A DNA stretch of 64,000 nucleotides from Aureococcus anophagefferens (taxonomy: Eukaryota > Sar > Pelagophyceae > Pelagomonadales > Pelagomonadaceae): NCBI RefSeq assembly GCF_000186865.1, contig NW_008705583.1, forward strand, positions 388,101-452,100. Reading direction: 5' to 3'. Positions 8,801 to 14,086 of the stretch are shown one piece after another. Position 1 is the stretch's first letter. Each line of letters opens with the position of its first letter. The notes below the pieces were generated by a model, which worked only from the letters and a program-made list of their open reading frames with translations, did not search any database and was not told where the DNA came from. The position numbers and the translations under genes were made by a program.

Positions 8801-11109
8801 TTAGAGCGCGTGGTAGAGCTTGACGCCGCCGTCGGCGCCCGCGGAGAAGAGCCAGGGCTGCGTCGGGTGGAACGCGACGTCGAGCGCGCCGAGGCCCGCG
8901 GCCACCTTGTGCGCGTCGAGGATCTTCACGGGCACGACGAGGGGGTTGCGCATGAGGTCGTCGTAGACCATGGCGTGGAAGACGTGGACCTTGCCGTCGT
9001 CCGCGGACGTCGCCATCAACGGGTAGCGCGCGTGGAAGTCGACGGCGCGGAGCGCCTTGTCGTGGTACTTTAGCGTCTTGTAGGCCGAGTCGCCCAGGTC
9101 CATGTCGAACCAGCAGAGCCGCTTGTCGCGCGACCCCACGGCGACGTGGTCGCCGCTCGGGTGCACGCGGAGGCACGAGATCCACTTCGCGCCGCACCGG
9201 AGCGTCTTTACCAACGTCTGCTGCGTGAGGTGGTAGACGCGCACGGCCGTCCGCGTCGCGACGAAGAGGAAGGGCTTCGACGGGTGGAAGGCCGCGGCCT
9301 GCACCGCGCCGCCCTTGTCGCCCCGCTTCAGCGGCGCCTGGGAGTCGCGCGCGGACGTGCGGTGGACGACGCACTGGAGGGACGCCAGGGCCTCGGGGCT
9401 CACGGTCACGAAGTAGTCGCCCTTCGCGTGCCAGGCCACGGTCCGCGCCTGCTTCTCCAGGCCCACCCGTAATCCCGGCCGGTCGCCCGCGAGGGTCTCC
9501 CAGGCCGCGACGCCCTCGCGCGGCTCCGCGTCGCCGTCGGGCCCCGCGAGGAGCGCCGCCGTCAGCTCCGCGTCGCCGCCGCGCGCCGTCTTCGCGTCGA
9601 CGACGTACACCCCGTCGCTGGCGGAGAGCAGGAGCACGCCGTGCTCGGGCCGCGGGTTCCAGGCGAGGGCCGCGAAGGGGCCCGGCGCGAGGTCGCCGCT
9701 CGCGAAGACGCAGCGGCCCGTGTAGACCTCCCACAATCGCAAGCTCCCGGCGCCGTCCGCCGTCGCCTGAGAGAGATATGCCGTCGGATCTTGGCGGGAG
9801 CGAAGGGGGAAAACCGGCGGCCGCCAATGGGTAGTTCCGATCGTCTTCCTCTCGCGGGCTCAAACGAGGTCGCTCCCGCGGTTTTGTCGCGGCGCGCCCC
9901 TTGACCAATTCCCCGCTTCCCCCCTCTCGAAACGAGCGCGGAAAAAAGGACGCGGGTCTCCGCGAGCCACTGGCCGTCGGGCGAGCAGGCCAGGGCGACG
10001 ACGGGCGCGTCGTGGCCGACGAAGTCGCGGCAGAGCGCGTTCGGGAAGGGCTTGAGGTCCTTCGGGTCCGGCAGCTTGGGCACCAAACTCTCCGGGTCGA
10101 TGTTCAGCCGCCGCTTCATCGCGCGCGGGCAGAGGTAGAGGTCCAGGCAGCGCTCGAAGCGCTCCTTGACCGCGTGCTCGTAGGCGCCCACGGCCCGGAG
10201 CGTGTCGTGGCGCTTGGGCACGAGGCCCTCGTGGTCCTCGAGCTCGTCGTCCTCGAGCAGATACTCCTCGGGCGGCCGGTAGGACTCGTCGTGGTTCGGC
10301 AGCGCGAGCTTCGGCGCGGGCACGTGCATGGGCCCCCGGCGCCGCGTCTCCTCCTCCTCGTCGTCGTCGTCGTTCGCCCACATGGACTCGGCGAAGGCGA
10401 GGAAGGCCTCGTCGCCGTCGGGCCGCGCCTTCTCGCGCTTCGCTTTGTTCTCCGCGCGCGTCACGATCGTGCCGTCCCTCAGGCCCTGGACGAGCTTCGC
10501 GACGCGCATGGCCTCCCACTTCGAGGGGAGGAAGCGCCGCTTCGGCTCCGGCGCGGCGCTCAGGGGCATGGCCTCCGTCGCGGACGCGACGACGTCGAGC
10601 GCGTCGCCGTACATTTCCGACTCGCGGTTCGCGAACGCGCCGCCCTTCATGCGCCGGATCTGCTCGAGCTCCCGGGCGCTCACGACGACGTTGCGCCCGT
10701 TGAGCTTGTCGTAGACCGTGAGGGCGCCGCCGCCCTGGGCCTCGAGCGCCTGCGCGAGCGCGTCGCTCGGCGCGTCGGCGACGACCTTGCCGCCGCCCAG
10801 GTCGTAGCCCACGTGGTCGTAGCCCTCGTACCAGTGCAGCGGCACGCGGCCCGTGGCGTTCCCCGCCTCCTCGTCGTCGGAGCTCAGGTCGTCGACGTGC
10901 ATGCCCTTGGCCGTCTCCAGGATGCCCGCGGCGCGCTCGTCGTCGAGCTCGGCCTCGCGGCCGCCGAGGCGCTGCCACCGGCGCGCCTCCTCCTCGTAGC
11001 TCCGCTCGCTGTCGTCGCCGTCGGACTCCGCATCGGACGACGACGGCGGCGACGGCGGCGGCGCGGCCTTCTTGCCGCGGCGGCCGCCCTTCTTGGAGGA
11101 GGAGCTCAT
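8801..11109 (-). CDS. BOP1: Ribosome biogenesis protein BOP1/Erb1 (one intron)
   Basis: Exons are complement(9952..11109) and (8801..9766), giving 707 residues, the usual BOP1 size. The acidic N-terminus is followed by the BOP1NT region: HWYEGYDHVGYDL, PSKWEAMRVAKLVQGLRDG, and a proline-rich stretch ending VPKLPDPKDLKPFPN. A WD40 beta-propeller begins at GHDAPVVALACSPDGQW and continues in exon 2 (SLRLWEV). BOP1 is part of the nucleolar PeBoW complex needed for 27S/32S pre-rRNA processing and 60S assembly. The 185-nt intron (9767-9951, GT-AG, phase 0) lies between propeller strands. Its excision joins WLAETR to ATADGAGSLRLW, where related proteins read WL-x-SG-x-DG-x-LRLWEV. Confidence 0.92.
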
Positions 11110-11283
11110 CGCCTTTTATCGATGGCTTTGCCCGAAGCAACTCTTCAGCCTCGGCCCGCTTGCAGTCAACTTACCGCAGCGGAAGACGATGGAGCCACTG
11201 ATGGAGCCCTCTCTCGGGATGTAGCAGCCTCGCAGCGTTGTGGCTAGGTCCCATCGCAAAAAAGGTGTAACAGCGCGCGAATC
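11110..11283. promoter_or_regulatory. Shared promoter region, BOP1 / selenoprotein
   Basis: A 174-bp gap between the divergent ATGs of BOP1 and the DsbA-like selenoprotein. It must hold both 5' leaders and promoters. No TATA box is obvious. G+C drops relative to the flanking coding sequence. Confidence 0.45.
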
Positions 11284-12441
11284 ATGGCAACGTTCGCGAC
11301 GCGCGAGTCGCCCTTCGTGGAGCCCACGCCGCCGCCCATCCACGCGCCGCGGGGCGTCGCGCCGAGCTGGCGCGTGCTGCCCACGACCGACGACCCGCTC
11401 GAGGGCCAGACCGTGGTCGACGTCGACTTCGTGAGCTGCACGAGCTGACCCCACGGCTACATGGCGAAGCAGAACCTCAACGTCGCCGTCAACGCGCTCG
11501 ACGGGGACAGCCCGCTCGTCTTCCGGATCTGGCGGCGGCCGTTCCAGCTGGACCCGACGCTCGAGAAGACGGCGACGCCGACGCCCGGCGCGACGATCCG
11601 GAGCGTCGCGAAGCGCGACCGGCTCTGGCTCGAGGAGGGCGGCGACGCGCGCGCGTCGTTCGGTGTCGCGACTCGCGTCTACGCGACCCGAGACCGTCCT
11701 TCCCTAGGCGACATGGCGAGCCTTAAGGAGCGCGGCGCGGAGCGCGGCGTCGCGTTCAGCTTCGACGGCGCCGTGACGAACACGCGCGACTCGCTGCGCC
11801 TCGTGCTCTGGGCCCAGAGCCTGGGCCGCAACGAGCAGCTCATGACGGCGCTGGGCTGGCGCCACTTTGGCGCGGACATGGAGATGGCGGACCGGCGCGT
11901 GCTCCTGGACGCGTGCGCCGAAGCGGGGCTTAGCCGGACGAAGGCGCGGCGCATCTTGGACGGCGACGCCTACGGGAGCGAGGTCGACGCGTCCCACGGG
12001 TCGTGGTCCGCCATGCGGCGCGTCAGCGGCATCCCCGTCGTCGTCTTCAGGTGCTACTTCCCGCACATCGACTACGCGCCGTCGCCGGAGCTCCGCTTCG
12101 ACGGCTCCGTCGCCGTGAGCGCCTACGGCGACGCGCTCGCGAAGCTCGAGCGCCTCGCGCGCGAGGCGCCGCGCTGGAACTTCGCCAAAGCGGCGCCGCG
12201 CTACGCCGTCGTCCACGCGCCGGCCTGCGCCGTCCGCGAGAAGCCGTCGACGGCGTCGCCCGTGCTGCGCTGGTATCGGCCGGGCGCGGAGGTGGACGTC
12301 CACGGCGCCGTCGACGGCTGGCTCAAGCTCAAGAAGGAGGCGGGCTGGATGCTGCTGGAGAGCCCGACCTACGGCACGCTCCTGCGGCCCGCGGCGCCGC
12401 CGCCGAGGAAGGGCGGCGTGCTCCGCATCTCCGACCTCTAG
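11284..12441 (+). CDS. DsbA/FrnE-type thioredoxin-fold selenoprotein with SH3 domain (UGA = Sec)
   Basis: Read from ATG 11284 to TAG 12441 the frame is open except for one TGA at 11446-11448, codon 55 of 385. This TGA sits exactly where the active site of DsbA-family proteins lies: VDVDFVSCTS-[TGA]-PHGYMAK. It yields a C-x-x-U redox motif (Cys52, Sec55). Downstream are hallmarks of the FrnE/2-hydroxychromene-carboxylate isomerase-like DsbA fold: RIWRRPFQLDP, a helical insert, and SGIPVVVF (the cis-Pro region). A C-terminal bacterial-type SH3 domain (about residues 307-360) follows. A SECIS hairpin follows the stop. Likely role: thiol-disulfide oxidoreductase or isomerase. There is no signal peptide. 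The alternative, a 42-nt GT-AG intron (11431-11472), would delete the active site and is less likely. Confidence 0.88.
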
Positions 12442-12449
12442 GCCCGCGC

Positions 12450-12515
12450 GCGCGTCGCGCCCATGATGGCGGCCGCGGGGGAAGCGACCCCGCGGGCGCC
12501 GGACACCGCACGCGC
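12450..12515 (+). promoter_or_regulatory. SECIS element in 3' UTR
   Basis: The hairpin starts 9 nt after the stop. The 5' quartet ATGA (12463-12466) faces GGAC with the conserved GA (12502-12503), forming the non-Watson-Crick SECIS core. The helix above it pairs 12468-12480 with 12488-12500 (12 pairs, one G-G mismatch) and is capped by a 7-nt loop GAAGCGA whose AA (12482-12483) is the conserved apical adenosine pair. A basal 6-bp stem (12450-12455 with 12510-12515) closes it. This matches the eukaryotic SECIS that recruits SBP2 and eEFSec for UGA recoding. Confidence 0.85.
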
Positions 12516-12605
12516 AGTAACGCGAACCGACGTCGGGCCCTGGGGCAGCGCCACACGCTTCAAAACGTTTCAACGACACGAGGACCGGACCCGTTTCAAA
12601 CGACC

Positions 12606-13646
12606 TTAGGCGGTCACGTCGACGACGACGCGCCCGCGCACCTTGCCCGCGAGGATGTCCTCGGCGCGCGCGGGGACGTCCGTGAGCGGCACCGTGGTCA
12701 CCGTGGCGGCGAGCTTGCCGCGGTCGAGGTCGCGGTCCAGCCGCGTCCAGACCTCGTCGCGCTCCTCGGGCGGGCTGTTGACGCTGTCGACGCCGAGGAG
12801 GCGCGCGCCGCGGAGGATGAAGGGGAAGACCGTCGTCTCGAAGGAGGCCCCGGCCGCGTTGCCGCACGCTGCCACCGCCCCCCGGGGCTTGAGCTTCGCC
12901 AAAACCGCCGCGAGCACGTCGCCGCCGGCCGTGTCGACGGCCGCGTCAAAGTCCGCGCGCTCCATGGGCTTCGCCGGCGCGTCGAGGCGCCCGATGACGT
13001 GCGCCGCGCCGAGCGCGCGGAGGTAGGCCTCCTCCTCCTCGTGCCGCGACGACGACGCGACCACATTGTGCCCGAGGTCCGAGAGGATGGCGACGGCCAG
13101 CGACCCGACGCCGCCGGCGGCGCCCGTCACGAGCACCGTCGCGTCCGGCGCGTCCAGCGCGCCCGACCGCTCCAGGTGGAGCACGCACTGCATCGCTGTG
13201 AAACCGGCCGTGCCCATGGCCATCGCCGTGTGGTTGTCCATGGAGTCCGGCAGCGCCGTGAGCCACTGCGTCGGGAGGCGCGCGAACTCGGCGTAGCCGC
13301 CGTCGCAGCGCTGGCCCAGGTGGTCGTTGACGCAGACGACGCGCGTGCCCCGCGGGGGCCCGAACGGCACGTCGAACGCGACCTCGCCCGCCAAATTGAT
13401 GCCCGGCACGACGGGGAACTGGGCGACGCCGGGCCGGCCGCAGACGACGAGGCCGTCCTTGTAGTTGAGGCAGCTGTGGGACACGCGCACGGTCACGTTG
13501 CTGTCGGCGATGGGCTGGCTCGGAGACTCGACGACGTCCTCGAAGGTCTCGATGGCCGCGGGGGCGCCGTCGCGCTTGACGAGCGCGCGGTACTGCCTCG
13601 CGGCGCGCGTCGGCGCCGCGGAGCGCCGGAACACGCGCGCGAGCAT
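12606..13646 (-). CDS. AcuI/YhdH-type zinc-free quinone/acryloyl-CoA reductase
   Basis: A 346-residue member of the medium-chain dehydrogenase superfamily. SCLNYKDGL near residue 60, PGINLAGEV, and the NADPH-binding LVTGAAGGVGSLAVAIL (about 155-171) are diagnostic of the YhdH/AcuI group. FPFILRGARLLGVDSV near the C-terminus also matches that group. AcuI reduces acryloyl-CoA to propionyl-CoA with NADPH, a step that detoxifies acrylate from DMSP breakdown. Some members act as quinone reductases, so the substrate is inferred. ATG 13646 starts a basic Arg/Ala-rich presequence (LARVFRRSAAPTRAARQY) suggesting mitochondria. It is convergent with the selenoprotein and 90 bp beyond its SECIS. Confidence 0.85.
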   Translation of the reverse strand: MLARVFRRSAAPTRAARQYRALVKRDGAPAAIETFEDVVESPSQPIADSNVTVRVSHSCLNYKDGLVVCGRPGVAQFPVVPGINLAGEVAFDVPFGPPRGTRVVCVNDHLGQRCDGGYAEFARLPTQWLTALPDSMDNHTAMAMGTAGFTAMQCVLHLERSGALDAPDATVLVTGAAGGVGSLAVAILSDLGHNVVASSSRHEEEEAYLRALGAAHVIGRLDAPAKPMERADFDAAVDTAGGDVLAAVLAKLKPRGAVAACGNAAGASFETTVFPFILRGARLLGVDSVNSPPEERDEVWTRLDRDLDRGKLAATVTTVPLTDVPARAEDILAGKVRGRVVVDVTA

Positions 13647-13780
13647 GGCTGGGTGACGGCGGCGGCGCTCTGCACTCGGCTGTGGACACGCTGTGGCAGC
13701 CAGTCGGCGAGCGGAGCTCCACCAACGCCGCGCCGCCGCCGCGCCAACGCGGCCGCCGCCGCGCGCAACACCGCAACGAT
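13647..13780. promoter_or_regulatory. Divergent promoter, AcuI-like / acidic protein
   Basis: A 134-bp gap between two ATGs pointing outward. It is G+C rich, with no TATA box recognised. Longer frames that invade it on both strands start only at GTG. Confidence 0.4.
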
Positions 13781-14086
13781 ATGGGCCGCGTCGCAAGACG
13801 TAGAGTAAACCGGCTGCGGCGCGTCGCGATCGCGCGCGGCGCGCTGCGCGTCGCCGGCGGCGCCGAGTGGGCCGGCGACGGCCGCGACGGCGCCGAGGTC
13901 TGCGACCCGGCGGACTGGGAGGCCGCCTGCGCGCGCGAGCTCGCGGAGCTCGACGGCGACGCGTCGGCGAGCGACTCGTCGTGGGCGGGCGACGACCGGT
14001 CCGACGCGTCCGACGGCAGCGTCGGCGCGGCCTGGGACGCCGCGGTCGCGGAAGAGATGGCCGCGGAGTTCGGGCCGGCCTTTCCG

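Follow-up and report, generated by a model that had tools for sequence, protein, structure and literature searches.

A predicted selenocysteine-containing FrnE-like DsbA protein with a fused SH3b-like domain in Aureococcus anophagefferens

DSBA is among the most widely distributed selenocysteine (Sec) families of algae, and the pelagophyte Aureococcus anophagefferens has 82 selenoprotein genes (PMC7539508). Sec-containing FrnE has been described in Mamiellophyceae (PMC6627142) and Sec-containing DsbA in invertebrates (PMC3473315). In DsbA, Sec takes the place of the upstream Cys, a residue that can function without the downstream one, and the TGA exon of Sec-DsbA has been misannotated (PMC2874816). 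Amongst marine prokaryotic DsbA selenoproteins, the listed forms carry either a UxxC motif (DsbA 1 and 2; U denotes Sec) or a UxxV motif (DsbA 3; PMC2398784). Here we analyse a gene in a 64,000-nucleotide stretch of A. anophagefferens contig NW_008705583.1 (the whole stretch will henceforth be referred to as the window), whose reading frame contains a TGA at codon 55. We consider it highly probable that this gene encodes an FrnE-like DsbA oxidoreductase that carries a fused SH3b-like domain, with UGA55 decoded as Sec.

The window gene resembles the algal and invertebrate Sec-DsbA/FrnE proteins (PMC7539508, PMC6627142, PMC2874816, PMC3473315), in having a DSBA domain with predicted Sec at the upstream, nucleophilic Cys, a candidate selenocysteine insertion sequence (SECIS) 3' of the stop codon, and a TGA exon that is lost in standard annotation. 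Unlike them, it has Gly in place of the second Cys, a Cys at position −3 relative to Sec, and a fused SH3b-like tail. The marine prokaryotic DsbA proteins likewise have Sec first in the motif, but UxxG combined with a −3 Cys is not one of the forms listed (PMC2398784). The fusions named in section 11 of PMC7539508 are SELENOM-pVHL, SELENOM-ShKT and GST-MSRA, with DsbA-SH3 not among them, and FrnE of Deinococcus radiodurans (5cnw, 5coh, 5co3, 5cp1, 5xwh) is without Sec, has a two-Cys CPWC motif and lacks an SH3b tail in the chain that was aligned. The initial annotation of this locus had called a Sec-containing DsbA-like/SH3b fusion an unusual architecture; this holds for the SH3 fusion, and also for the displaced Cys, but not for Sec-DsbA itself, which is a published algal family. 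The window gene is thus a variant of that family by virtue of its SH3b fusion and displaced Cys, adding a fused, rearranged member to it, and may already figure in the published list of Aureococcus selenoproteins.

The reading frame (Table 1) is preceded by an in-frame TAG at 11245 and is open from ATG 11284 except at codon 55, where the context is V-S-C-T-S-TGA-P-H-G-Y; direct reading of the sequence confirmed the 385 otherwise open codons initially reported. Given that the DNA is GC-rich and that 195 open reading frames (ORFs) of at least 100 amino acids were listed in the window, frame length alone is little proof, and the weight therefore lies on homology and codon periodicity. The Pfam DSBA domain (PF01323; 50.1 bits against a cut-off of 25.6) matched residues 47-255 and hence spans the TGA, while G+C content at the three codon positions was 0.67/0.57/0.98 5' of the TGA and 0.69/0.54/0.96 over the entire frame. 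When the 14 residues on either side of the TGA were compared with those of a paralogous locus, L003, the ungapped similarity score was reached by 9 of 100,000 shuffles on the upstream side and by none of 100,000 on the downstream side. Comparisons with another paralogue (L004) and a bacterial-type relative (P0010) were weaker upstream (1,148 and 1,464 of 100,000 shuffles, respectively) and strong downstream (2 and 1). The gene therefore codes for protein both 5' and 3' of the TGA, as expected of a eukaryotic selenoprotein, in agreement with the earlier statement that domain homology continues across the codon. A search of NCBIfam returned just two sub-threshold matches, both to other proteins.

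As had been foreseen, a conventional ORF call starts at ATG 11461, downstream of the TGA, and gives a protein of 326 amino acids from which the active site is lost. That gene callers yield exactly this shortened protein, and that four close relatives also start at MAKQNL, is what one would see if the TGA were a true stop, i.e., if the locus were a pseudogene or encoded a functional protein without an active site. Codon periodicity and similarity nevertheless persist 5' of the TGA, and the combination of TGA and SECIS-like hairpin is common to all eight DSBA loci described below; we thus regard a true stop as very improbable.

A search for homologues with Cys in place of Sec55 was successful: all 12 bacterial-type proteins in an 18-row alignment have Cys in the columns of both residue 55 and Gly58, and so do all 80 bacterial loci examined (the best 80 among 308 relatives in a scan of genome contigs, all bacterial by record title). 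The Cys homologues expected for a eukaryotic selenoprotein were hence present at the Sec position. Since both columns are Cys in all of these bacterial homologues, Sec55 would replace the nucleophilic Cys whereas the resolving Cys has been lost, and it follows from the alignment position that Sec55 would act as the nucleophile. Instead of a two-thiol CxxC, the protein has the motif UPHG, with Sec first and Gly second, making it a DSBA-domain protein with an altered motif. The active site had previously been described as CxxU; while C-T-S-U is literally present, in the alignment Sec falls on the first CPWC Cys and not on the second-place Cys of CxxC, and a Cys52-Sec55 pairing would be an extra feature rather than the standard motif. 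FrnE was the top fold match of the protein. In the structure model, a strand (residues 43-51) precedes Cys52 and a helix (residues 56-70) follows directly after residue 55, and P251, the candidate cis-Pro loop residue before the last core strand, is invariant across the 18-row alignment.

The same alignment bears on the suggestion that the TGA is spliced out of the mRNA as part of a 42-nt GT-AG intron (11431-11472). GT and AG are indeed present at the two ends and 42 is divisible by three, yet excision would delete residues 50-63, i.e., the active-site segment aligned with bacterial CPWC, and the MAKQ encoded within it is kept in five relatives (P0002-P0005 and P0020). Furthermore, the paralogues carry TGA at the equivalent site, where no intron boundaries common to them were noted, and the introns inferred in this DSBA family measure 55-62 nt as opposed to the 42 nt proposed. 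We therefore rejected this intron, whose chance of being real we consider minimal.

The genome examined (49 Mb) encodes tRNA-Sec, SepSecS, SelD and an eEFSec candidate together with a KTI12/PSTK-type match (the two not being distinguished), such that the Sec machinery expected for a eukaryotic selenoprotein was found, and 10 matches to GPx, Rdx and MsrA have an in-frame TGA. We conclude that the organism decodes Sec. Searches with the protein and with PF01323 recovered eight distinct DSBA loci (a lower bound), namely the window gene and seven paralogues, and in every one of them TGA takes the place of the first CPWC Cys (see motifs in Table 1). The Cys at the resolving position is kept only in L038 and L039, and a Cys at −3 occurs only in the window gene and in L003, even though the latter is just 29% identical to it. 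Every DSBA gene recovered from this genome thus appears to use Sec, and six of the eight lack the usual resolving Cys. In L007 an inferred 55-nt GT-AG intron (1123-1177) splits the Sec codon between T and GA, meaning that the TGA is visible only with the intron removed, and the TGA codon is adjoined by an inferred intron of 60 nt in L038 and of 62 nt in L039; the placement of the TGA in these three loci accordingly leans on intron inference. The C-terminal part of L003 (about 2098-2436, after an inferred intron) had no match in Pfam and may be another fused tail.

In the 3' region of the window gene, a structure scan detected a predicted SECIS element, which starts 21 nt past the stop codon and 1,017 nt past the TGA, with an additional helix I outside the core in the fold of 12450-12515. 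We used an explicit structure scan in place of a SECIS covariance model because MAFFT scattered the hairpin columns. With the AA loop required and only ATGA quartets allowed, the window contained three matches, and only the one at 12463 was below −15 kcal/mol. In a background set comprising the window without 12001-13000 plus other loci (both strands), 16 matches were found in 276,438 nt, i.e., 0.7% per 120 nt, and none of 2000 shuffles of 12442-12605 reached −25 kcal/mol. A hairpin of the same design at −20 kcal/mol or better followed all eight DSBA genes as well as eight of nine GPx/Rdx/MsrA genes (the ninth, L016, folds at −17; the tenth match, C38:206441, is outside this count). Fourteen of these 16 hairpins lie 4-65 nt from the next in-frame stop or, in L003, just beside it (in the frame after the inferred intron, the stop of L003 is at 2435-2437, 25 nt ahead of its hairpin); in the GPx genes L011 and L015 the distance is 189 and 428 nt, respectively, and an extra exon may intervene there. 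In L007 the hairpin after the stop, at 2113, is of GTGA type. The Rdx-family gene L017 also has an in-frame TGA followed by a very stable GTGA-type hairpin (1834; −43.7 kcal/mol), suggesting that GTGA quartets may serve in this lineage.

Two protein searches yielded 18 eukaryote-type relatives (P0002-P0006 and P0019-P0031), two of which (P0019 and P0027) have transcriptome labels. All 18 begin at or past residue 60, downstream of the active site, which is what a stop at the site in each of them would produce; in other words, standard annotation appears to strip the active site from every eukaryote-type relative found. A fungal match, P0032, has CPWC. In a tree of 21 rows, which included nine of the 18 relatives, the window gene grouped with P0003, P0004, P0005, P0021, P0006 and others, adjoined by L003 (92/86), although L003, L007 and L038 are long-branched and their placement is unsure. 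A pattern scan of IMG/VR matched 16 stretches, none of which encodes a relative.

Table 1 Features of the window gene (window coordinates) and active-site motifs of the eight DSBA loci; U, predicted Sec.
Feature	Positions	Strand	Description
Coding region with in-frame TGA	11284..12441	+	ATG 11284 to TAG 12439-12441; 385 residues in the genomic frame
Cys52 codon	11437..11439	+	Candidate resolving thiol, 3 residues before Sec55; Asp in bacterial-type relatives
TGA codon 55	11446..11448	+	Predicted to be read as Sec; column of the first Cys (nucleophile) of FrnE CPWC
Gly58 codon	11455..11457	+	Aligned with the resolving (second) CPWC Cys
Probable 57-nt GC-AG intron	11651..11707	+	Residues 124-142 of the genomic frame
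SH3b-like C-terminal region	12214..12438	+	Residues 311-385
SECIS-like core	12463..12504	+	ATGA quartet, 12-pair helix with 1 mismatch, AA loop 12482-12483, GGAC
Window gene motif			CTS-U-PHG
L003 motif			CTQ-U-PHG
L004 motif			DTM-U-PNG
L007 motif			DPN-U-AHF
L038 motif			DMA-U-PWC
L039 motif			DIV-U-PFC
L040 motif			DPN-U-YWA
L041 motif			DLN-U-LWA

Several observations weigh against the selenoprotein assignment. When the scan was run without the AA requirement on both strands, the window contained eight matches at −20 kcal/mol or better, even if the one at 12463 was the strongest. The scan criteria were moreover partly post hoc, as the AA requirement was dropped and GTGA added after known selenoprotein genes had been viewed. 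Rfam gave no match to a SECIS family in 11000-13000 at E-values up to 10, and the fold of 12442-12540, taken as a whole, is no more stable than those of its shuffles (z = −0.72). The eEFSec candidate scored 189 bits, under the curated cut-off of 242, and the structure model is weak overall, with a mean predicted local distance difference test score of 59. In the relatives, the TGA is deduced indirectly, from shortened protein starts, and the contigs of several are short. Finally, the assignment as a whole is computational.

On balance, the SECIS-like hairpin, the Sec machinery, the seven paralogues with a TGA and the bacterial Cys homologues uphold what the initial annotation had proposed, i.e., a DsbA/FrnE-SH3 selenoprotein with a UGA in its active site. 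Computation showed the TGA and the homology of its position, as well as the hairpin, the paralogues and the genes for the Sec machinery, and from these we infer that Sec is very likely inserted at UGA55; the proposed chemistry, the choice of resolving partner and the function of the tail are interpretations that build on this. Specifically, the hairpin 3' of the stop codon would act as a SECIS element, enabling the Sec machinery to insert Sec at UGA55, which would place a selenolate at the start of helix alpha-1, the site of the nucleophilic Cys in bacterial FrnE. This selenolate could then attack disulfides, mixed disulfides or other oxidised substrates. With Gly in place of the usual resolving Cys, resolution of the resulting intermediate would fall to Cys52, which lies three residues upstream, or to glutathione, and we hold these two partners to be about equally likely.

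If glutathione were the partner, the protein would be a glutathione-dependent monoselenol enzyme, in which Sec55 has no intramolecular partner and Cys52 is incidental, in the manner of kappa-class GST and HCCA isomerase, a reading to which we give almost an even chance. To our knowledge, those two enzymes have neither Sec nor an SH3b tail, unlike the window gene, and the Cys at −3 is common to the distant L003, which argues that it may be under selection. A broader scenario, which we put forward tentatively, is that the resolving thiol has shifted from +3 (UxxC) to −3 (C-T-S-U-P-H-G) in two distant paralogues, within a set of DSBA genes that all use Sec and of which only two in eight have the usual resolving Cys, and that the SH3b-like tail targets one paralogue to a partner. 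The genes of this genome make it directly testable how a DsbA fold works when it has only one selenol or when its partner thiol is displaced.

The tail itself was recognised as an SH3b fold. At the sequence level, SH3b (PF08239) reached 25.7 bits, short of the cut-off of 27, and 13.6-26.1 bits in P0002-P0006, and SH3_3 (Pfam) had a sub-threshold match to residues 317-355. Our guess is that this domain probably docks the enzyme to a partner.

Between the active site and the tail, the residues encoded by 11651-11707 are missing from P0003, P0004 and P0005 and present in P0002. The segment has a G+C content of 0.68 at all three codon positions (vs. 0.69/0.54/0.96 for the entire frame), starts with GC and ends with AG behind a pyrimidine-rich run, and its exact excision creates GGDARDMASLK, as in P0003. 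Judging by these signals, it is likely an intron, the removal of which would give a protein of 366 residues. An inferred 62-nt GC-AG intron in L039 (1438-1499) starts with GCGCG like the 57-nt one. The idea that the 57-nt insertion is a multi-copy introner was not borne out, its own copy being the only one found in the genome.

The window gene is flanked by two genes on the − strand, encoding a BOP1 N-terminal domain protein (9562-11109) and a zinc-type alcohol dehydrogenase (12606-13796), neither with an evident functional link to the selenoprotein. Among the 120 matches listed of 687 in a protein search with the BOP1 ORF, the nearest named ones were from A. anophagefferens (95% over 38% of the query) and Pelagophyceae sp. 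CCMP2097 (57% over 70%), which places the genome among the pelagophytes. Elsewhere in the window, seven more SECIS-like hairpins at −20 kcal/mol or better, all weaker than that at 12463 (16199, 24659, 30910 and 50298 on the + strand; 41727, 25740 and 11843 on the − strand), probably reflect chance in GC-rich DNA.
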